Shown in pieces: positions 1 through 9,168 of a DNA stretch of 9,168 nt (positions are counted from its first letter, which is position 1; each line of letters opens with the position of its first letter). Source of the DNA: a bacterium (lineage in GTDB: Bacteria; UBP15; UBA6099; DSWB01); the NCBI GenBank assembly GCA_020061125.1, contig JAGUYV010000039.1, forward strand, positions 1 to 9,168, read 5' to 3'. The position numbers and the translations under genes were made by a program. The notes below the pieces were generated by a model, which was given only the letters and a program-made list of their open reading frames with translations, was not told the DNA's origin and ran no database searches.

Positions 1-1104
1 GATGCGCAGCGCGAGATCCGCGACCTGCGCGCGGGCCGCCCCCGCCGCTTCGTTCCGCGCCGCTGCGAGTCCTGCTTCGCCTGCAATCTGGTGTGTCCCC
101 AAAAAGCAAACCCGGCCCAGTTGTTCCTCGATGCCTTCCACGCGGAACTCCAGCGCAAGGGCACGCCCGCGTGGGCCGATTACTTCCAGCCGCACGACCC
201 GGACAATTTCAGGCAGTTCATCACCGCGCGCATGCCCGTTGCAGAACGGCGCCTGATCGAAAAATGGGCGGACCGCTCGCCCTGCGAGGAATTCGTGTAC
301 CCGGGCTGCAATGTGATCGCAGCGCCCTACCTCACCCGGGCCTGGTTTCTCAAGGATCTCAACATCCGCGGCGGCCTGGACCTGTGCTGCGGAGAAATGT
401 ACTACCGCACGGGCATGGTCGAGCGGCTCGAACAGCAGGCGCGGCGGCTCGCGGATTTCGTGCGCGAGCTATGCGCGAAACGCATGATGATTCTGTGCAC
501 TGCGGGATATAACCTTTTTACCAACATCCTGCCCCGCCACGGGTTCGATGCGGACATCGAGATCACGCCGTACCTGCCATGGCTTTGGGAACAGATTCAG
601 AGCGGCGGCATCCCCATCGTGAACAAGCTGAACATCACAGCCACGATCCAGGAGTCGTGCCACGCCAAGATCATCGGAGACGAATACATGGACCTTCCAC
701 GGCGCATTCTTGCGGCCTGCGGCGTGGAAGTTGTGGAAAAGAAACAGAACAGAGACTGCGCGTTCTGCTGCGGCATCGGCGGCGGGTTCCCGCCGGGCAG
801 CGGATACCACCCCGTGGATGTGACCCGGGCCACGCTTCGCGTGGCGCACGAGGCCGCGCGCACGCGCGCTCACGCCCTGGTGTGCTACTGCGCGGGATGC
901 ATGCAGAGCCTGTGCGCGGGCATGGCCGCGTACCCCGCGCGCATGCCCGTGTACCATCTGTTCCAGGTGGTGCAGCAGGCCTCGGGCGAGATGCCCGAAC
1001 TGCGCGTCAACGCGCAGCGCGGCCGTCTGCATATTCAGGGCATGCTCACCCGCCAGGTCCCACGGCTGCTGAACCCGAAACGGAAACCCTTGACGCAGCC
1101 ATGA
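1..1104 (+). CDS. Hdr/GlpC/GlcF-like iron-sulfur protein with two CCG domains (5' end outside window)
   Basis: The frame is open from the first base, so the gene begins upstream; 367 codons are visible and it ends in TGA. Numbering from the window edge, a 4Fe-4S ferredoxin motif C22-x2-C25-x2-C28-x3-C32-P is followed by two cysteine-rich CCG domains like those of HdrB/HdrD, GlpC, GlcF and LutA. Domain 2 is complete: C220, C256-C257-G258, C297-x2-C300. Domain 1 has C103, C129-C130-G131 and C166, but the last expected cysteine is G169. Family members pass electrons between a flavoprotein and quinone, thiols or other Fe-S carriers, usually at the inner face of the membrane. A second ferredoxin motif, normal in this family, could lie upstream of the window. 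The next gene, 63 nt downstream on the same strand, is a flavoprotein oxidoreductase, so an electron-transfer partnership is likely but inferred. The exact substrate or acceptor cannot be read from the sequence. Confidence 0.88.
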   Translation, partial: DAQREIRDLRAGRPRRFVPRRCESCFACNLVCPQKANPAQLFLDAFHAELQRKGTPAWADYFQPHDPDNFRQFITARMPVAERRLIEKWADRSPCEEFVYPGCNVIAAPYLTRAWFLKDLNIRGGLDLCCGEMYYRTGMVERLEQQARRLADFVRELCAKRMMILCTAGYNLFTNILPRHGFDADIEITPYLPWLWEQIQSGGIPIVNKLNITATIQESCHAKIIGDEYMDLPRRILAACGVEVVEKKQNRDCAFCCGIGGGFPPGSGYHPVDVTRATLRVAHEAARTRAHALVCYCAGCMQSLCAGMAAYPARMPVYHLFQVVQQASGEMPELRVNAQRGRLHIQGMLTRQVPRLLNPKRKPLTQP

Positions 1105-1167
1105 CAAAATCGGTATGAATCAGTAACCGGGCAGAACACGCCGAATCAAACGCCGGAGGTATACGCC

Positions 1168-2496
1168 GTGTCGAGAATCGTGAAGGAAGCGGATGTTGCG
1201 GTTATTGGATCCGGGCCGGGCGGCGCCACCGTGGCGCGGCAGATGGCGCGCGCGGGCAAGAAAGTCGTGCTCCTCGAATGGGGCCGCGACTGGCGCAACA
1301 GCCCCTTCTACGGCACCCACACGGGCTGCCTCATGTACACCGATAAAATGGGCATGCTGCTCACCAAAGAGAGACTCAACATCGTGCGCGGCATCATGAC
1401 CGGCGGCTCCTCGAACCTTTTCTGCGGCACTGCGTCCCGGCCCCCGGCCTGGCTGCGCGACAAGTACGGCGTGAACATTGACGCCGAAGTCAGCGAAACC
1501 ATAGACGAACTCAAGATCGGCCCTCTGCCCGACAAATACATCGGCGAAGCCTCCAAACATGTGCTGGATGCGGCCCTGTCCCTGGGCCTGGACTGGGAGC
1601 CGTATCCCAAGTTCATGAACCCGGACAAGTGCAACGGAGGCTTCAAGTGCGGCAGCGTGTGCATGCTCGGGTGCAGCTGCGGCGCCAAATGGACCGCCAA
1701 CGAATACATTGACCAGGCCGTGCTCGCGGGCTGCGAATTGATCACCGGCGTGCGCGTGCGCCGCGTGATCCACGACGGAACCAATGCGCACCGCGTGGAA
1801 GGCCGCCTGTACGGCATGACTCCGATCGAGGTGCGCGCCAGAGTCGTGGTCCTGTGCGCCAGCGGCATCGGGTCGCCGCGCATCCTGCAGCAGTCGGGCT
1901 TCATGAAAGCGGGCCAGGGCATGCTCATGGATCCCACGGTCATGGTGTACGGCGCATACGACGGCCCGGGCACCTACGCGGACCCGCAGATGTCCGTCGG
2001 CTCATACGACGACAGCAACGGCTACATCTTGAGCCACCTCATGGATCCCTGGCTGCTGTATCCAATGATCATGATGCTCAAGGGGCCGGGCTACGCCCTC
2101 ACCTTCCCGCGCTACAAGCGCACTCTCGGCATCATGATCAAGGTCAAGGACGAAGTGGCGGGCGGCGTATTTCCGGACGGCTCTATCAGCAAGCCCATGA
2201 CCGTGCGAGACAAAGAGCGCCTGCGCCACGCGGAAAATGTGTGCCACAAAATCCTCATCCGCGCGGGCTGCAATCCGCGCACCATATTCACCACGCCCCT
2301 GCGCGGCACTCACCCCAGCGGCACCGTGCGCATCGGCGAAATGCTCGACTCCAACCTCAAGCTCCACGAGCTGAACAACATGTATGTGTGCGACGCCAGC
2401 ACCTTCCCCGAAGCCCTGGACCGCCCCATCGTGCTCACGGTCATCGGCATGGGCAAGCGCCTGGCCGCGCACCTGCTGAAAACGCATTTTGCGTGA
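1168..2496 (+). CDS. GMC-family FAD-dependent oxidoreductase with cysteine cluster
   Basis: The 442-residue protein oxidises an unknown alcohol, sugar or polyol using FAD. It starts at GTG, 8 nt after GGAGG (1155-1159). The FAD dinucleotide fold is GSGPGG (14-19) with acidic E37 at the end of strand 2. The GMC signature TGGSSN lies at 78-83. The C-terminal GMC domain has HPSGT (382-386, catalytic His382) and a conserved Y-V-C-D-A-S segment near 400. A cysteine cluster C155, C161, C165, C169, C171 followed by GAK resembles both the C-x2-GC-x2-GAK motif of alcohol-oxidising GMC enzymes and the 3Fe-4S ligands of bacterial FAD glucose dehydrogenase. At about 440 residues it is shorter than typical 500-600-residue GMC enzymes. 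The second catalytic His/Asn appears replaced by R419. There is no signal peptide, so it is probably cytoplasmic. It follows the Fe-S gene by 63 nt, suggesting an operon in which electrons leave through Fe-S centres and not to oxygen. The family call is firm; the substrate is unknown. Confidence 0.9.
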   Translation: MSRIVKEADVAVIGSGPGGATVARQMARAGKKVVLLEWGRDWRNSPFYGTHTGCLMYTDKMGMLLTKERLNIVRGIMTGGSSNLFCGTASRPPAWLRDKYGVNIDAEVSETIDELKIGPLPDKYIGEASKHVLDAALSLGLDWEPYPKFMNPDKCNGGFKCGSVCMLGCSCGAKWTANEYIDQAVLAGCELITGVRVRRVIHDGTNAHRVEGRLYGMTPIEVRARVVVLCASGIGSPRILQQSGFMKAGQGMLMDPTVMVYGAYDGPGTYADPQMSVGSYDDSNGYILSHLMDPWLLYPMIMMLKGPGYALTFPRYKRTLGIMIKVKDEVAGGVFPDGSISKPMTVRDKERLRHAENVCHKILIRAGCNPRTIFTTPLRGTHPSGTVRIGEMLDSNLKLHELNNMYVCDASTFPEALDRPIVLTVIGMGKRLAAHLLKTHFA

Positions 2497-2532: not shown

Positions 2533-3552
2533 ATGGGATTCCGTTTCTTTCGCAGAATCAGAATTGCTCCGGGCGTGACTCTGAATTTGAGCAAATCCGG
2601 ATTGTCCACATCTTTCGGACCCCGCGGCGCGAAATTCACGGTTGGCCCCCGCGGCACGCGCCAGACCGTAGGCATCCCAGGCACGGGCCTGTTCTACACC
2701 ACCACACAGTCTTACAACAAGAAACAGCCGCCCCGGACGCAGGCACCGACGACTCCGGCACAATCTTTAAATATCGGCTTTTTCAAGAGCCTCGTGATTC
2801 CCGCGGATGAGAAATCGTTTGTCGAGGGGTGCAAGGCGCTGCTGCAAAATGATTTGCAGGCCGCGCATGCGCATTTCGCCCAATCGGGCAGCGCAGACGC
2901 GTGCTTTATGGCTGGCGTCATCGCCCTGAAACTGGACATGACGGCCGATGCGGAACAACGCCTCCAGACCGCGCTCCAGAGAAAGGAATCCCTGGGTGCG
3001 CTGCTCAACAAATACGGCATCGAAGCCGGGGCGAGCATTCCGATCACGGATGAGATCTCCGCATTCGTTCAGGCCGATGCAAAAGGCGCGCTGCTGATTC
3101 TAACGGAAGTTTACCAGGAGCGGAAGAATTTTGACGCAGCGCTCAATTGCCTGTTCGACTTAAGGAAATTCGATCCCGAAGACATTCTTGTGAAGCTGTC
3201 GTTGATTGAAATCTATTTTGAAACTTTCGAGTCGGACAAGAACCGGCTCCAGTCCATTCTTAACCTGTCCAATGGAATTGAAAACCTCCCGGCCATTCAC
3301 ACGGCCATCCTGCTGTACCGCGCAAGCGCGCTGCGGCTTCTGGGTTTGAACCAAGCGGCAAAGGACATACTGACCGGCGCCTTGAGAAAGCGAAAAGATC
3401 GCTCCGTGGATCTTCTGCACGCAATCCATTACGAACGCGCGCTGGTGTACGAAAACCTCGGCAAGCCGCAGCTTGCAAGAAAAGATTTTGAAAAGATATT
3501 CGCGGTGAATCCGGAATTTGAAGATGTTGCGAAACGGCTCGGGCTTGGTTGA
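2533..3552 (+). CDS. DUF4236 domain protein with C-terminal TPR-like helical repeats
   Basis: The 339-residue start was chosen at ATG 2533, 3 nt after a strong GGGAGGAG (2522-2529); an in-frame TTG at 2500 lacks such a site. Residues 1-55 match the short glycine-rich DUF4236 domain (function unknown): M-G-F-R start, N-L-S-K-S-G near 18-23, two GPRG turns (29-32, 38-41) and PGTG at 49-52. A proline/threonine/glutamine-rich linker (about 58-75) leads into helical repeats; the clearest TPR unit is at about 297-328 (A-x2-Y-E-x-A-x2-Y-E-N-L-G pattern). No signal peptide or membrane helix is visible. DUF4236 often sits at the N-terminus of otherwise varied proteins, and TPRs usually mediate protein contacts, so a scaffolding role is possible but inferred. 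The gene lies 36 nt after the GMC gene and could be co-transcribed. Its second half (from about 3100) is noticeably more AT-rich than its neighbours. Confidence 0.85.
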   Translation: MGFRFFRRIRIAPGVTLNLSKSGLSTSFGPRGAKFTVGPRGTRQTVGIPGTGLFYTTTQSYNKKQPPRTQAPTTPAQSLNIGFFKSLVIPADEKSFVEGCKALLQNDLQAAHAHFAQSGSADACFMAGVIALKLDMTADAEQRLQTALQRKESLGALLNKYGIEAGASIPITDEISAFVQADAKGALLILTEVYQERKNFDAALNCLFDLRKFDPEDILVKLSLIEIYFETFESDKNRLQSILNLSNGIENLPAIHTAILLYRASALRLLGLNQAAKDILTGALRKRKDRSVDLLHAIHYERALVYENLGKPQLARKDFEKIFAVNPEFEDVAKRLGLG

Positions 3553-3623: not shown

Positions 3624-4559
3624 TCAGTAGCGGGCGTGTTTCATGGCGCGGACGCGGTCCAGGGGCCAGAACTGGACCCAGGCTTTGGCGACCACATTTT
3701 TGCGCGGCACGAAGCACAGGCCGTCCTGTTTTTTATAGGGCCATTCGGCATCGGGGCAGAAGCGGCTGTCGCTGCTGTTCCATCTGTTATCGCCCATGAA
3801 GAACAAGGAGTCTTTGGGCACTTTGACCCTGGGGAAGTCGGGCTGGTAAGGCGCGCCGTGTTCCTGGTTCAGGTACGGCTCGTCCAGCGCTTTGCCGTTG
3901 ACGAAGGTGACGCCCCGGCGCACTTCCACGGTGTCGCCGCCCACGGCGATGAGGCGCTTGATGTAGTTGGTGATGCTGACATGCTTGTAAACGCCCAGGT
4001 TGTAGGTTTTGCGATCAGCCTCGCGCGTGGATTTGAAGATCACGATGTCGCCGCGCTGCGGGTCCCCGAGCCGGTACTTGAGCATGGACCCCATGAGGCG
4101 GTCGTTTTCATAGAAGGTGGGGATCATGGACCCGGAGGGGATGTAAAAGGATTGCAGGAACAGGGGGCGCACAATGAACATGGCGACCACGAAAGCGATG
4201 ACCAGGGACTGGATCATGTCGCGCGCCCACTGCTTGGGCGTGGGGGCCACGCTGATCACGGTGGAGGCGTTGCCGAAGGGCGTTTCCACGGTCACCGGCG
4301 CCTTGCCCACGGGCCGGGCGGGCTTGATCTTGATGATGGCGATTCCGTTTTTGGCCTGGACTTTTTCTTCGAGCTTGAGCTTTTTGCAGCGGAAAGTGAC
4401 GGGGATTTCTTCCTTGATTTTGCGTTTGGATTTGGCGCCGGCGCCGCCGGAAGGAACGAACATGCAGCGCACGGTGGACTCCTGCTGCCCGTCGGACACG
4501 ATTTTGTCCGGGGACGCAGAGAGATCCACCGTGTACTTGCTGCCGGAATCGCTGGTCAA
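3624..4559 (-). CDS. lepB: Signal peptidase I with N-terminal Ig-like extension
   Basis: Type I leader peptidase cuts signal peptides from exported proteins at the outer face of the inner membrane by a Ser-Lys dyad. Numbering from the TTG start: one membrane helix at about 115-135, then P-S-G-S-M with nucleophile Ser144, the R-G-D-I-V-I-F box (169-175), Y-I-K-R with general base Lys201 followed by V-G-G-D, and the M-G-D-N...D-S-R box (255-266). Residues 9-105 are unusual: a beta-rich stretch with an A-S-P-D-K-I-V-S-D-G start resembling invasin/Big_1-type Ig-like domains. With a single helix in the usual orientation, this domain would face the cytoplasm. The gene begins 6 nt after the rplS stop and in the same frame. 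The TTG start lies in a hairpin without a clear Shine-Dalgarno; an alternative GTG (4472, codon 30) has AGGAG at good spacing but would cut the Ig-like domain. Last gene of the operon. Function certain, start uncertain. Confidence 0.93.
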   Translation of the reverse strand: MTSDSGSKYTVDLSASPDKIVSDGQQESTVRCMFVPSGGAGAKSKRKIKEEIPVTFRCKKLKLEEKVQAKNGIAIIKIKPARPVGKAPVTVETPFGNASTVISVAPTPKQWARDMIQSLVIAFVVAMFIVRPLFLQSFYIPSGSMIPTFYENDRLMGSMLKYRLGDPQRGDIVIFKSTREADRKTYNLGVYKHVSITNYIKRLIAVGGDTVEVRRGVTFVNGKALDEPYLNQEHGAPYQPDFPRVKVPKDSLFFMGDNRWNSSDSRFCPDAEWPYKKQDGLCFVPRKNVVAKAWVQFWPLDRVRAMKHARY

Positions 4560-4579
4560 GGCGGGTTATTTCCCGCCTT
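4558..4579 (-). promoter_or_regulatory. Hairpin enclosing the rplS stop and the lepB start
   Basis: On the minus strand AAGGCGGG-AAATAA-CCCGCCTT forms a perfect 8-bp stem with a 6-nt loop. The rplS TAA stop is in the loop, and the first two bases of the proposed lepB TTG start are in the 3' arm. No T run follows, so it is not a classical terminator. It could slow entry to lepB or make its translation depend on ribosomes finishing rplS; this role is inferred. Confidence 0.5.
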
Positions 4580-4955
4580 TGCCGGCTTTGGCGCCATCTT
4601 TCTTGGAGATGATGCGGTCCTTGAGGCGCGCGGATTTGCCCACGCGGTCGCGCAGGTAGTACAGCTTGGCGCGGCGCACAACGGCCTTGCGCACGACTTC
4701 AACCTTGGCCACGCGGGGCGAATGCAGGGGGAAGGTTTTCTCCACGCCCACGGAGAAGGACAGTTTGCGCACGGTGATGCTGCGGTGGATGCCGCCGCCC
4801 TTGTCCGCGATGACTGTGCCCTGGAACACCTGGATGCGTTCCTTGTCGCCCTCGATGATGCGGTGGTGCACTTTCACCGTGTCGCCGATTTCGCACTGCG
4901 GCAGTTCTTCCGCGGGTTTGGCATATTGTTTTTCAAATTCTTCAAGAAGTCCCAT
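4566..4955 (-). CDS. rplS: 50S ribosomal protein L19
   Basis: The 129-residue protein is a large-subunit component near the 30S/50S interface. Family marks in order: I-G-D-T-V-K-V-H (about 23-30), the E-R-I-Q-V-F-Q-G-T-V strand (39-48), G-V-E-K-T-F-P-L-H-S-P-R (70-81) and the basic R-R-A-K-L-Y-Y-L-R segment (94-102). The C-terminal tail is rich in Lys, Gly and Ala (K-D-G-A-K-A-G-K-G-G-K) and slightly longer than in many bacteria. ATG is preceded by AAAGGAG at suitable spacing, which lies inside the end of trmD; the two genes overlap by 14 nt. rplS following trmD is one of the most conserved bacterial gene pairs. Its TAA stop sits in the loop of a hairpin that runs into lepB. Confidence 0.98.
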   Translation of the reverse strand: MGLLEEFEKQYAKPAEELPQCEIGDTVKVHHRIIEGDKERIQVFQGTVIADKGGGIHRSITVRKLSFSVGVEKTFPLHSPRVAKVEVVRKAVVRRAKLYYLRDRVGKSARLKDRIISKKDGAKAGKGGK

Positions 4956-5703
4956 CGTGTTTCTCCTTTCCGTAGCCGAGAGACTTGAGTATGGCGATGT
5001 CTTTGTCCGAAAGCGCGGCCTTTTCGAGCAGGTCTGGCCTGCGCCGGAGCGTGAGTTCCAATTTCTTTGCGCGGCGCCACGCGATGATGTTGGCGTGGTG
5101 ACCGCTGGGCAGGACTTCGGGCACTTTCCACCCGGCGAACTCGGCCGGGCGCGTGTAGAGCGGCGCGCCCAGGAGGCCGTCGCTGAAAGTGTCTTCCTCC
5201 ACGGATTCGGGCTTGCCGACTACGCCGGGAACAAAGCGCGCCGCGGCGTCTATGATGACCAGGGCGGGCAGTTCGCCGCCCGTGAGCACGAAGTCGCCGA
5301 TGCTGATTTCCCGTGCCCGGAAGCGTTGCCGCACCCGGTCGTCCACGCCTCCGTAGTGGCCGCAGATGATGATCTTTTCCGGCTCCGCGGCCAGTTCCCT
5401 GGCCAGCGCGTTGTCGAGCACGCGGCCGTGGGGCGAAGTCATGTACACTGGGGTGTCCGGGCCGGCGGCGCAGAGGCCGAAGACATGCTCCACGGCGCGG
5501 AACAGAGGCTCTGGCTTGAACACCATGCCCGGCCCTCCGCCGTAGGGCACATCGTCAACCGTGCGGTGCCGGTCGTCCGTGAAATCCCGCAGGTCGTACA
5601 CATGGGTTTTGACAAGGTCCTTTTCCCGGGCGCGGCCCAGGATGCTTTCCGAGAGAACCGCATCCATCATCTGCGGAAAGATGGTGATGATGCGGCAAAT
5701 CAT
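4942..5703 (-). CDS. trmD: tRNA (guanine37-N1)-methyltransferase
   Basis: TrmD transfers a methyl group from S-adenosylmethionine to N1 of G37 in tRNAs, preventing +1 frameshifting; it is a SPOUT trefoil-knot homodimer. The 253 residues are of normal length. Visible marks: R-D-F-T-D-D-R-H-R-T-V-D-D-V-P-Y-G-G-G (39-57), S-P-H-G-R (90-94), I-S-I-G-D-F-V-L-T-G-G-E in the knot (133-144), R156 and D171 matching catalytic R154 and D169 of the E. coli enzyme, and Y-T-R-P (183-186). One oddity: the usual R/H-Y-E-G-I-D-E-R segment reads H-Y-G-G-V-D-D-R, so the position of E. coli Glu116 is Gly118 (codon GGA). The ATG overlaps the rimM stop as ATGA, which indicates translational coupling; only a weak AGGGA lies upstream. 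The 3' end overlaps rplS by 14 nt. Confidence 0.98.
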   Translation of the reverse strand: MICRIITIFPQMMDAVLSESILGRAREKDLVKTHVYDLRDFTDDRHRTVDDVPYGGGPGMVFKPEPLFRAVEHVFGLCAAGPDTPVYMTSPHGRVLDNALARELAAEPEKIIICGHYGGVDDRVRQRFRAREISIGDFVLTGGELPALVIIDAAARFVPGVVGKPESVEEDTFSDGLLGAPLYTRPAEFAGWKVPEVLPSGHHANIIAWRRAKKLELTLRRRPDLLEKAALSDKDIAILKSLGYGKEKHDGTS

Positions 5704-6209
5704 ACGACGAAATCCCTGTTGACGATCATGATCCCGCGATCGAGGTCAATGCTTGCGATGGCCTGGCGCGTGGCGGGCACCAGCACATGGTCCCTGCCTC
5801 CGGGTTTGAGAATCCAGTAGACATCCGTGGATCCCGCCGGGGTGATCTGGTCCAGCGTTCCGAGGTGTTCGCCTTCGGCAGTCTGCACCCGCAGCCCTTC
5901 GAGCTGGTAGTAGTAGTACTCGTTTTCACCGGCCGGGGGCACGCACTCCTCGGGGACTTTGAGCAAAGCGCCCCGGAGTTGCCCGGCGGCGTCCCGGTCG
6001 TCCACTCCTTCGAGCTTGAGCATTACATGCCCCGGCTTCAGGCGCACGCTCTGCACGGAAAAGCGCCGGGGTTCGGAGCGCTCCCTGGCCGCAAAGAGGA
6101 ATTCGAGATCCTCGAAGCGCGCGGGGTCGTGCGTGATGGGTTCGACCTTGAGCCAGCCTGCAAGCCCGTGCGGGGCGAGCACCCGGCCCACCAGAACGAG
6201 CGCGCTCAT
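5700..6209 (-). CDS. rimM: 16S rRNA processing protein RimM
   Basis: This 169-residue protein assists maturation of the 30S head and binds S19. The N-terminal RimM domain shows V-G-R-V-L-A-P-H-G-L-A-G-W-L-K-V (7-22), the family G-x-I-x-x-x-H-G-x-x-G pattern. The C-terminal PRC-barrel begins near the tyrosine run E-Y-Y-Y-Y-Q-L-E-G-L (about 96-105) and includes S-T-D-V-Y-W-I and L-V-P-A-T, then I-D-L-D-R-G near the end. The start ATG overlaps the khpA stop as ATGA, and its own TGA overlaps the trmD ATG in the same way, so it is translationally coupled on both sides; no strong Shine-Dalgarno is seen. Placement next to rpsP and trmD is the standard bacterial arrangement. Confidence 0.97.
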   Translation of the reverse strand: MSALVLVGRVLAPHGLAGWLKVEPITHDPARFEDLEFLFAARERSEPRRFSVQSVRLKPGHVMLKLEGVDDRDAAGQLRGALLKVPEECVPPAGENEYYYYQLEGLRVQTAEGEHLGTLDQITPAGSTDVYWILKPGGRDHVLVPATRQAIASIDLDRGIMIVNRDFVV

Positions 6210-6436
6210 CCGATCAGTTCGATGGAAACCTTCTTGCCCTCTTTGACGGCCGCGGCGCGCACGATTGTGCGGATGGCGTTGATGATGCGGCCGTGCTTGC
6301 CGATGACTTTGCCCACATCGGACGTATTCACCTTGATTTCATACACCACGGCTTTCTCGCCTTCCACTTCCATGACGCTCACTTCCTCGGGCACATCCAC
6401 TATGGCTTTGACGAGGTATTCCAGCAGTTCTTTCAC
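6206..6436 (-). CDS. khpA: KH-domain RNA-binding protein
   Basis: The small single-KH protein (76 residues from this start) binds RNA; in Gram-positive bacteria KhpA acts with KhpB/EloR on cell-length control and RNA, and its role elsewhere is less clear. The G-x-x-G loop is V-I-G-K-H-G-R (44-50) followed by the I-x-x-A-I-R helix. The start chosen is GTG at 6436: GGAGG lies 8 nt upstream, and the resulting M-K-E-L-L-E-Y-L-V-K-A-I-V-D opening matches the family. A TTG 15 nt further up (6451) stays in frame, but starting there would put the Shine-Dalgarno inside the gene. It lies 41 nt after rpsP and its TGA overlaps the rimM ATG by 4 nt. This slot between rpsP and rimM is the usual home of this gene. 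Confidence 0.95.
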   Translation of the reverse strand: MKELLEYLVKAIVDVPEEVSVMEVEGEKAVVYEIKVNTSDVGKVIGKHGRIINAIRTIVRAAAVKEGKKVSIELIG

Positions 6437-6477
6437 GGGGGCCACCTCCAACGGTGTGCTTGCCGGGATTCGCGTTG

Positions 6478-6726
6478 TTATCCGATCTTGATTCCTTTCT
6501 CCTTCATGAGTTTCTTGACGGCCAGCGTGGGCTGCGCGCCTTTGCTGATCCAGTCCTTGAGCTGCTCTTCCTGCAGCACGATGGATTCCGGGTACTGCCT
6601 GGGGTTGTAATGGCCCAGGATTTCCAGGAATCTGCCGTCGCGGGGGTAACGCTTGTCAGCGGCCACCACGCGGTAGTGCGGGGCTTTTTTTGCGCCCATT
6701 CTTGTGAGACGGATTGTTACGGACAC
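6478..6726 (-). CDS. rpsP: 30S ribosomal protein S16
   Basis: This 82-residue small-subunit protein is needed for 30S assembly. Its N-terminus is highly typical: I-R-L-T-R-M-G-A-K-K-A-P-H-Y-R-V-V-A-A-D, then R-D-G-R-F-L-E-I-L-G-H-Y-N-P. The second half has W-I-S-K-G-A-Q-P-T with a V-K-K-L helix and a short basic tail. It starts with GTG, with GGAGGTG just upstream at good spacing. It begins 31 nt after the ffh stop and is followed 41 nt later by khpA, so co-transcription with both is expected. Confidence 0.98.
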   Translation of the reverse strand: MSVTIRLTRMGAKKAPHYRVVAADKRYPRDGRFLEILGHYNPRQYPESIVLQEEQLKDWISKGAQPTLAVKKLMKEKGIKIG

Positions 6727-6757
6727 GGTTCACCTCCAGAGCTGTGCTGTGTCGTGG

Positions 6758-8098
6758 CTATGGCGCCAGGTTTCCGAGATTCTTAAGATCGAAGCCCGGG
6801 GGTAGCTTGCCCCTGGACATCTGGCTCATCATTTTTTTCATCCAGTTGAACTGCTTGAGCAGGGCGTTGATCTCCTGGATGCTTGTGCCGCTTCCGCGTG
6901 CGATGCGGCGCTTGCGGCTGGCGTTGATGATGTCGGGATTGCGGCGTTCCTTGACGGTCATGGAATTGACGATGGCTTCGATGCGGCCCATCTGCTTGTC
7001 GGCCATGTCCATGTTGAGCTTGCCGGCCACGGCGCTCATGCCGGGGATCATGCCCAGCAGCTTGCCCACGGAACCCATTCTCCGCACCTGCTTGATCTGG
7101 TCGAGAAAATCCTCGAAATCGAATTTCTCCTTGCGGATCTTTTTCTCGAGGGCGCGCGCCTTTTCCTCGTCCATGGTTTCCTCGACGCGCTCAATGAGCG
7201 AGACGAGGTCGCCCATCCCGAGGATGCGGTTCACGAAGCGGTCGGGGTGGAAGGGTTCGAGATCCTCGGGCTTTTCGCCGGTGCCGATGAACTTGATGGG
7301 CTTGTCCGTGACATGGCGCACGGACAGGGCCGCGCCGCCGCGCGCGTCGCCGTCCATTTTGGTGAGGACGAGGCCGGTCACGCCCACGGGCACGAAGCTG
7401 TTGGCGATGTTCACTGCGTCCTGCCCGGTCATGCCGTCCAGGACCAGGAGCATTTCCGTTGGCTCGACCGCGTCGCGGATATTGCGCGCCTCGTCCATCA
7501 TGGCTTCGTCAACATGCGTGCGGCCTGCGGTGTCTATAAAAAGGCAGTCGAACCCGTTGTCCCGCGCATGCTCTTTGGCGGCGCGGCTGATTTCCACCGG
7601 GTCCTTGATGTTTTCGGGGAAGAAGAACGGCAGGTTGTTCTGTTCGGCCACCACGCGAAGCTGCTCGATGGCGGCCGGGCGGTACACATCAACGGGGGTA
7701 AGAAGGACTTTCTTGCCCTGGCGGCGCAGCATGCGCCCGAGCTTGCCCGTTGTGGTGGTCTTGCCCGAACCCTGGATGCCGCACATCACATACACCGACG
7801 GCTTGGCCGGGGCAACCTGCAGGCCTTTGCCCTCGCCGCCGAGCAACTCGACAAGCGCATCCTTGACGATTTTGAAGAAGGTCTGGTGCGGGGTGAGGCT
7901 GGTGAGCACTTCCTCGCCCAGGGAGCGCTCCTTGACCGTGGCGATGAACTGGCGCGCCACATCAAAGTTCACATCCGCATCAAGCAGGGTGAACCGCAGC
8001 TCGCGCATGGCCTCCTGTATGTTGGCCTCGCTGATGCGGCCCTGGCCGCTCATCTTCTTGAAGATGCCGCCCAGCTTCTCTGAAAAGCTCTCAAGCAT
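6758..8098 (-). CDS. ffh: Signal recognition particle protein Ffh (SRP54)
   Basis: This 446-residue GTPase, with 4.5S RNA, binds signal sequences on nascent chains and delivers ribosomes to FtsY and the Sec translocon. The N domain is about 1-90. The G domain carries the P-loop G-I-Q-G-S-G-K-T-T-T (107-116), D-V-Y-R-P-A-A (137-143), D-T-A-G-R (189-193) and T-K-M-D-G-D-A-R-G-G (246-255). The M domain from about 325 has the S-R-K-R-R-I-A-R-G-S-G-T-S RNA-binding segment (394-406) and a methionine-rich helix M420-M427 for signal-peptide contact. Length and all motifs are normal. It is the first gene of the minus-strand operon; its ATG lies about 85-90 nt from a plausible -35 box, with a leader containing two hairpins and only a weak GGCGGG/GGGATGG ribosome site. 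A 4.5S RNA gene was not found in the window. Confidence 0.98.
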   Translation of the reverse strand: MLESFSEKLGGIFKKMSGQGRISEANIQEAMRELRFTLLDADVNFDVARQFIATVKERSLGEEVLTSLTPHQTFFKIVKDALVELLGGEGKGLQVAPAKPSVYVMCGIQGSGKTTTTGKLGRMLRRQGKKVLLTPVDVYRPAAIEQLRVVAEQNNLPFFFPENIKDPVEISRAAKEHARDNGFDCLFIDTAGRTHVDEAMMDEARNIRDAVEPTEMLLVLDGMTGQDAVNIANSFVPVGVTGLVLTKMDGDARGGAALSVRHVTDKPIKFIGTGEKPEDLEPFHPDRFVNRILGMGDLVSLIERVEETMDEEKARALEKKIRKEKFDFEDFLDQIKQVRRMGSVGKLLGMIPGMSAVAGKLNMDMADKQMGRIEAIVNSMTVKERRNPDIINASRKRRIARGSGTSIQEINALLKQFNWMKKMMSQMSRGKLPPGFDLKNLGNLAP

Positions 8099-8159: not shown

Positions 8160-8188
8160 AGTTTAATATGCCGCACCCGGTTTGTCAA
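8160..8188 (-). promoter_or_regulatory. Candidate sigma70-type promoter for the ffh operon
   Basis: On the minus strand a perfect TTGACA (8188-8183) is followed after 17 nt by TAAACT (8165-8160), which matches 4 of 6 bases of the -10 consensus. The predicted start near 8153 gives a leader of about 55 nt. The -35 is strong and the -10 moderate. Confidence 0.5.
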
Positions 8189-8200
8189 TTTTCTCTCTAT

Positions 8201-8217
8201 TACAGGTATTTCCTGTA
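8201..8217. promoter_or_regulatory. Perfect 17-bp dyad, candidate operator
   Basis: TACAGG-TATTT-CCTGTA is a perfect 6-bp inverted repeat with a 5-nt centre. It lies between the two candidate divergent promoters, one base from the + strand -35 box and 12 nt upstream of the ffh -35. It would lie outside both predicted transcripts, so a DNA-binding dimer site fits better than an RNA hairpin. The regulator is unknown. Confidence 0.45.
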
Positions 8218-8218
8218 C

Positions 8219-8247
8219 TTGTTGAGGGTATTATATTACATTACAAT
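8219..8247 (+). promoter_or_regulatory. Candidate sigma70-type promoter for the sialidase-fold gene
   Basis: TTGTTG (8219-8224) and TACAAT (8242-8247) are separated by 17 nt in an AT-rich stretch unlike the surrounding sequence. The predicted start near 8254 leaves a leader of about 30 nt carrying GGAGG (8275-8279). Confidence 0.5.
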
Positions 8248-8283
8248 GAGAAACGCCACACCCCGAAAAGGTCCGGAGGCCCC

Positions 8284-9168
8284 GTGATTGTGAGCGAACT
8301 GCGGATACGGAATGTGGAGCACGCCGTGCTGCTCCAGAGCCGGGATTCCGATCTTCTGAATCCTTTCCCGCTCGCCCTGCCCGGCGGCGGTTTCGCTCTG
8401 GTCTTTCAGAAAGCGGAGCGGCTCGTGGCGCCGGGACGCCGGGATTTCGCGGCGTCCAGCGCGGTGTGCATGGCGCAGGCGGACACGCCCGAACAATGGG
8501 CGGATGCGTCCGCGGACGAGATTCCCGGTAGCCGGGGTTTCGGCCAGTGCCCGGCCCTGCACCACACAGGCGGCGGCCGCTTCGTTTTGCTCGACTGGCG
8601 CTGGGGCCTGTTCCCGGACAACGAAAAACCCATATACGGGTTCCGCGTCCCCGGATGGGACGGCTGGGCCGGATTCGGCGAATGCGCCGCGCGCACGGCC
8701 GCTCCGGAAAATGGATCCTGGGCGTTCGGCCAGCCATCCGTGATTGATCTGGAAAATGAAAAAATCGTGCGCACCGGACCGTGCATTGTGGCCATGGATG
8801 ACGGCGCGCTGCTCGCCCCGGCGTACTGCGCGGACCCGTTGAACAATCAGTTCACGAACCATGTATTCATGCTGCGCTCAACGGACGCAGGCCAAACATG
8901 GTCGCAATGGGGAACCCTGGACCGGCGCGACAAGCAGTACGCGCCCCTCACCGAGACCGTGGCCGCGCGCACGGGCGGCGATTCTCTGTGCGCACTGATT
9001 CGCACCACCAACAAATTCGATTTCGCACTGTGCTCACGCAGCAGCGACGCGGGCCGCACATGGTCCCTGCCAGAGCGCACCGATTTGCAGGGCCACGCCA
9101 CGGACATGGTTGCGCTGCCGGACGGCGAACTCCTGGCCGCCCTGGCCCTGCTGCCGGACGCCGAAGGC
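8284..9168 (+). CDS. Sialidase-fold (Asp-box/BNR repeat) protein, 3' end outside window
   Basis: The open frame runs 295 codons to the window edge. The start is GTG 8284, 4 nt after GGAGG (8275-8279); a second GTG two codons later (8290) is 10 nt away and equally possible. Two clear Asp-boxes, S-x-D-x-G-x-T-W, lie at residues 199-206 and 253-260, with hydrophobic strands between them, as in the six-bladed beta-propeller of sialidases and related glycoside hydrolases. The N-terminal F/Y-R-I-P arginine motif of true sialidases is not seen; the equivalent area reads L-N-P-F-P-L-A-L. No signal peptide or membrane segment is present at the N-terminus, so the visible part suggests a cytoplasmic protein, unlike typical secreted sialidases. 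It may act on intracellular sugar products, but the substrate is unknown. It is transcribed away from the ffh operon from its own promoter region. Confidence 0.82.
   Translation, partial: MIVSELRIRNVEHAVLLQSRDSDLLNPFPLALPGGGFALVFQKAERLVAPGRRDFAASSAVCMAQADTPEQWADASADEIPGSRGFGQCPALHHTGGGRFVLLDWRWGLFPDNEKPIYGFRVPGWDGWAGFGECAARTAAPENGSWAFGQPSVIDLENEKIVRTGPCIVAMDDGALLAPAYCADPLNNQFTNHVFMLRSTDAGQTWSQWGTLDRRDKQYAPLTETVAARTGGDSLCALIRTTNKFDFALCSRSSDAGRTWSLPERTDLQGHATDMVALPDGELLAALALLPDAEG

Follow-up and report, generated by a model that had tools for sequence, protein, structure and literature searches.

Enzymes of the GMC family have mostly been studied as oxidases or as periplasmic cytochrome-linked dehydrogenases; the Gluconobacter fructose dehydrogenase is periplasmic and cytochrome c-linked. 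In the locus analysed here, a GMC gene follows a gene for a CCG-domain iron-sulfur (Fe-S) protein. Fe-S GMC dehydrogenases and CCG-linked flavoproteins are both already known. Like the present pair, GlpABC, LutABC and GlcDEF couple a flavin dehydrogenase to a CCG Fe-S protein. To our knowledge, their flavoproteins are not GMC enzymes; the flavoprotein of this locus is a GMC protein according to Pfam, and it therefore departs from systems of the GlpABC/LutABC/GlcDEF type in this respect. The explanation that we favour, with a probability of roughly 55%, is an Fe-S GMC dehydrogenase whose electrons would leave through a surface cluster for an Fe-S protein dedicated to it, with the CCG protein as the most likely recipient at this locus.

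The window, that is, the whole stretch of 9,168 nucleotides that was analysed, is one entire contig (G000:C495) of a genome that is 79% complete and whose phylum is represented by seven genomes in the collection used. The CCG gene (1–1104) and the GMC gene (1168–2496) are co-directional on the plus strand and lie 63 nt apart. The sequence was re-read, and the coordinates, the gap and all five cysteine positions given in the first-pass annotation were correct. Since the window is a whole contig and the first open reading frame runs off its start, the 5′ end of the CCG gene is missing. A ribosome-binding site (GGAGG, 1155–1159, plus strand) is located 8 nt upstream of the GTG start codon at 1168. 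A search of positions 900 to 2700 turned up neither promoter-like nor terminator-like sites, which agrees with, but does not prove, the two genes forming one operon. Directly 3′ of the GMC gene and on the same strand, positions 2533–3552 encode a DUF4236 and TPR protein. The minus strand carries, at 3624–8098, a signal peptidase I gene with an N-terminal extension (Pfam-checked), followed by genes that by their appearance are putative rplS, trmD, rimM, a KH protein gene, rpsP and ffh; a gene for a BNR/sialidase-like protein (8182–9168) is cut at the contig end.

The GMC gene encodes a GMC-fold flavoprotein of 442 aa, in which GMC_oxred_N (PF00732, 60.1 bits) and GMC_oxred_C (PF05199, 40.0 bits) both exceeded their curated cut-offs. 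Its FAD-binding Rossmann motif GSGPGG, together with the next strand (residues 8–39; 1189–1284, plus strand), was recognized by Pfam DAO and FAD_binding_2. The AlphaFold2 model reached a pLDDT of 92.4, with the lowest confidence (about 70) in the loop that carries the cysteine patch. Searches of this model with Foldseek and VIA-align returned [3Fe-4S] fructose and glucose dehydrogenases as the top eight PDB fold matches, with a small structural lead over cholesterol oxidase (Z 37.2 vs 35.5), and the best PDB sequence matches were entries of the Burkholderia FAD-dependent glucose dehydrogenase (FAD-GDH; hereafter BcGDH). The top fold match was the Gluconobacter fructose dehydrogenase (8jej, 8k6k, 9jqa; Z 37), a member of the DET-type class that is only about 17% identical to the window protein.

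Alignment placed the catalytic His382 (2311–2313, plus strand) on BcGDH His476, and His was found at this position in 64 of 65 subfamily members. The second catalytic residue of BcGDH, Asn519, corresponds in the alignments to Pro420 (2425–2427, plus strand), and 62 of the 65 have Pro here. Judged by sequence, the window protein is thus a GMC protein by fold and catalytic His but lacks the standard catalytic pair, and standard GMC alcohol oxidation is not to be assumed because Pro420 stands at the second catalytic position. In addition, His105, the covalent-FAD residue of BcGDH, is replaced by Leu84, and Cys86 (1423–1425, plus strand; Cys in 34 of 65 members) is aligned to BcGDH Ala107.

BcGDH (DET-type; 6a2u, 8grj) carries a surface [3Fe-4S] cluster that lies, crystallographically, 12–13 Å from FAD N5 with Ala107/108 between them (PMC6719666). 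It shares with the window protein the GMC fold, the catalytic His and a Cys-rich loop at the same place. The patch of the window protein, comprising C155, C161, C165, C169 and C171 (1630–1680, plus strand), is the proposed Fe-S cluster site, as suggested by its conservation in 65 relatives and by the alignment of the BcGDH ligands. A profile-profile alignment to BcGDH and two of its relatives (E 9e-37) placed C165 and C169 on Cys218 and Cys222, and C161 at Cys212/213. Two of the three BcGDH ligands are thereby matched, whereas the spacing of the first ligand differs (C161, x3, against C212-x5-C218-x3-C222): the window protein reads C-x3-C-x3-C-x-C, plus C155, where BcGDH reads CC-x4-C-x3-C. 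This alignment bore out the alternative register mentioned in the first-pass annotation, which had put forward C155-C161-C165 as the ligand triad. The triad itself was rejected, because the profile alignment disagrees with it and most proteins of the window's close clade lack C155 and have C171 instead. Unlike the three-ligand pattern of BcGDH, most subfamily members have a fourth patch cysteine.

The window protein also differs from BcGDH in other respects, being about 100 residues shorter, with Leu84 for the covalent-FAD His and Pro for Asn519, and its gene has no adjoining small subunit or cytochrome c gene. Neither a small subunit nor a cytochrome c of the kind found in three-subunit enzymes was detected in the window, nor any open reading frame with two or more CxxCH motifs, and PF13618 (Gluconate_2-dh3 small subunit) was absent from the source genome at its 79% completeness. 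The window protein is therefore placed outside the three-subunit DET class. In the known relatives L140 and L141, both the small subunit and cytochrome c are annotated.

A genome collection was scanned for relatives; the single window protein gave no matches, and a three-sequence profile recovered the subfamily. Its hosts include Syntrophobacteria, Desulfobacteraceae, Chloroflexi, Spirochaetes, SAR324, Dehalococcoidia and others; sulfate reducers and further lineages that are mostly anaerobic are among them. In one desulfobacterial phylum, 45 copies were found in 27 of 395 sampled genomes; in the Chloroflexi phylum, 5 of 400 genomes had one copy each. Five cysteines within 17 residues are unusual, being reached in 71 of 20,000 shuffles of the GMC protein. 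In the alignment of 65 subfamily members, Cys was present at position 155 in 49, at 161 in 59, at 165 in 55, at 169 in 60 and at 171 in 14 proteins. Counted per protein, 60 of the 65 have three to five patch cysteines (three in 5, four in 53, five in 2) and the remaining five have none (4) or one (1), suggesting that these residues are gained or lost as a set. As many Cys-poor proteins never arose in 20,000 trials of column shuffling (permutation p<5e-5, phylogeny ignored), and the proteins that lost all patch cysteines are spread over separate parts of the tree. The four GMC genes of L111, L125, L126 and L136 have lost them together, in more than one lineage; C169 is replaced by Asp in all four and C155 by Trp in three.

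Hardly any protein has C155 together with C171 (one or the other in 61 proteins, both in 2), as expected for the exchange of one ligand. The window's clade is fully supported on the tree, and there C171 takes over from C155; within it, both cysteines are retained only by the window protein and by that of L009. C165 is absent in L008 and L010, the latter being the member with a CCG neighbour, and the Photobacterium protein (L004) keeps the patch cysteines without an Fe-S neighbour.

It is improbable that the patch is instead a structural zinc or disulfide site in an ordinary GMC oxidase or dehydrogenase. Such a site would fit with the facts that it is not unusual for GMC proteins to have cysteines in this loop, that some members lack the patch cysteines and that the genome encodes another GMC protein with its own version, C-x5-C-x3-C. 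However, the loop coincides with the crystallographic [3Fe-4S] loop of BcGDH (PMC6719666), Fe-S neighbours are enriched around the genes, and the hosts are mostly of anaerobic lineages, where an oxidase is unlikely if oxygen is absent. Since the patch behaves in an all-or-none manner and aligns with the BcGDH [3Fe-4S] loop, and since Fe-S GMC enzymes are the top matches in both sequence and structure, we infer an Fe-S-wired GMC dehydrogenase, and an Fe-S cluster in the window protein is likely.

The protein encoded upstream (1–1104, plus strand) is a CCG-domain Fe-S protein of the EtfD/HdrBC/GlpC-like kind (Pfam CCG above cut-off), truncated 5′ at the contig edge. A small profile built for it matched EtfD (9ojn, E 2.6e-26), HdrB and HdrC, in line with the earlier assignment of this neighbour as an Hdr-type Fe-S carrier. 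Compared by alignment with the full-length relative encoded in L010 (392 aa), it lacks about 33 residues at its N-terminus. One ferredoxin-type motif, CESCFACNLVCP (C22, C25, C28, C32; 64–99, plus strand), provides one predicted [4Fe-4S] site; the L010 relative has two such motifs, so the first was presumably lost with the 5′ cut, its region lying beyond the contig edge. Noncubane-type ligands are present in both CCG domains. In the first half (307–510, plus strand) they comprise C103, C129-C130 and C166, and the set is incomplete because Gly169 replaces the last Cys (CPxC in L010). The second half (658–900, plus strand) has the complete set C220, C256-C257, C297 and C300, following the noncubane [4Fe-4S] pattern of HdrB and fitting the ligands of EtfD cluster D2 (PMC13083937). 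For this protein, AlphaFold2 gave a low-confidence model (pLDDT 55, from three sequences), which was left out of the analysis. The CCG protein of the window resembles EtfD, HdrBC, HdrD and GlpC (9ojn, 5odc; PMC13083937) in its two CCG halves, its complete second noncubane-type set and its ferredoxin-type motif, and differs from them in having no obvious membrane part and in the missing last Cys of the first set. The usual flavoprotein partners of these proteins are ETF, HdrA or GlpA, not GMC enzymes.

A conserved GMC–CCG pairing, looked for in the neighbourhoods of close homologues as the earlier annotation had suggested, was clear at only one other of about 60 loci compared and was rejected as a general rule. 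That locus, L010 from a Desulfobacteraceae host in a different phylum, has genes for a CCG protein, an amino-acid permease, PALP, an AhpC-like protein, GMC and MR_MLE, all in one direction. A distant CCG protein was seen in L015. No CCG protein was found near most close relatives (L006–L009, L011, L012, L090, L091, L129–L131), and a close CCG homologue was absent altogether from several of their genomes. Of the earlier proposal that an Fe-S-wired GMC dehydrogenase feeds an Hdr-like carrier, the Fe-S site gained support from the conserved patch, the BcGDH loop and the top matches, and the conserved CCG pairing did not.

This rarity bears on a rather unlikely alternative in which the GMC protein holds an Fe-S cluster, the CCG gene lies beside its gene by chance and the electrons are taken up by a soluble ferredoxin or some other carrier, as in relatives whose GMC gene adjoins that of a ferredoxin-tailed protein. 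In genome G001 (L005), CCG homologues are located on contigs C6 and C84 and the GMC gene on C14, and a ferredoxin-tailed protein adjoins GMC directly more often than a CCG protein does, both of which speak for an incidental arrangement. On the other side, the two genes of the window are co-directional, 63 nt apart and have no terminator-like site between them, and both families share one gene cluster in the different phylum of L010. For the CCG protein as partner of the window GMC protein, we put the chance slightly below even.

Fe-S neighbours of other kinds recur around the GMC genes. A ferredoxin-tailed protein (about 300–340 aa, Cys-rich, ending in a 2[4Fe-4S] tail and lacking any Pfam match in its N-terminal part) was directly adjacent in ten loci (L016, L092, L095, L096, L104, L107, L110, L118, L132 and L144), in nine of them as the immediate same-strand neighbour, L144 being the tenth pair. 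The family was enriched at rank 1 (9/117) over ranks 2–6 (9/444; p 0.005). Its specificity for GMC was rejected, as five of six copies examined were full-length and away from GMC genes and the family as a whole has many members. Genes for double-cubane-type reductases, comprising HgdB-like subunits and a BcrA-like activase, were found close to GMC at 19 of 62 loci and at some of these form tight operons with it; in L019, the genes for GMC, U500, HgdB1, HgdB2 and BcrA overlap or abut. A conserved protein of about 500 aa is encoded between the GMC and HgdB/BcrA-like genes (L017, 7295–8755; L018, 7444–8931; L019, 1704–3209) and also in tight operons of this type in L108, L112 and L113; its L019 copy had no Pfam or NCBIfam match. 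In L005 (346–9263), two HgdB1/HgdB2/BcrA sets flank genes for CdhC-like and CooC/ParA-like ATPase proteins just upstream of the GMC gene.

These reductase genes, and the Pro at the second catalytic position, would be in keeping with an enzyme that runs in reverse, with electrons passing from reduced Fe-S carriers through the cluster to FAD and on to reduce a substrate, in concert with ATP-dependent double-cubane-type reductases. We give this direction little probability: no HgdB-type gene lies in the window or near close-clade members, the catalytic His is kept, and we know of no biochemical precedent for it among GMC enzymes.

In the favoured explanation, the enzyme is an oxidative Fe-S GMC dehydrogenase. 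Its cluster would be held in the loop that carries [3Fe-4S] in the Burkholderia glucose dehydrogenase and the Gluconobacter fructose dehydrogenase, with C161, C165, C169 and C171 as the likely ligands and C155 as a spare or alternative. A hydride would be transferred to FAD while His382 takes the proton, and FADH2 would give up its electrons by way of the surface cluster to a dedicated Fe-S protein rather than to oxygen. The best candidate acceptor in the source genome would be the adjacent EtfD/HdrBC-like CCG protein, which would hand the electrons on to a quinone or a disulfide; among the relatives, this role would fall to other Fe-S proteins.

The conserved four-Cys patch and the occurrence of relatives in anaerobic lineages, often beside Fe-S proteins, suggest that a known enzyme family has a branch, undescribed so far, that works without oxygen. 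Tentatively, we propose a mainly anaerobic Fe-S GMC branch with four cysteines for a [4Fe-4S] cluster, Pro in place of the His/Asn partner of the catalytic His, and electron exchange with dedicated Fe-S partners of the CCG, ferredoxin-tailed or ATP-dependent double-cubane type rather than with oxygen, quinone or cytochrome c. In open-licence papers on GMC enzymes with heterodisulfide reductase, double-cubane proteins, hydroxyacyl-CoA dehydratase or [4Fe-4S], this subfamily was not found described; nor were the combination of GMC with CCG, four cysteines of which one is exchanged, the lack of the second catalytic residue or the presence of Fe-S neighbours. If real, such a branch, common in some anaerobic lineages as the desulfobacterial counts show, would be an extra electron entry point to anaerobic catabolism and a source of oxygen-insensitive enzymes for bioelectrodes, and it would raise the question of how GMC chemistry runs without the second catalytic residue.

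Recurrent neighbours in the window's close clade are a PALP enzyme of the D-cysteine desulfhydrase family, an M28 peptidase, an amino-acid permease and an MR_MLE enzyme. Because close relatives sit in such amino-acid catabolic clusters, we would guess at a small alcohol or a hydroxy or amino compound as the probable substrate. The second GMC protein of the source genome (L002, 1489–2937; G000:C226) carries its C-x5-C-x3-C, the ligand spacing of BcGDH, before GAK and, as judged by eye, has Asn, not Pro, at the second catalytic position.
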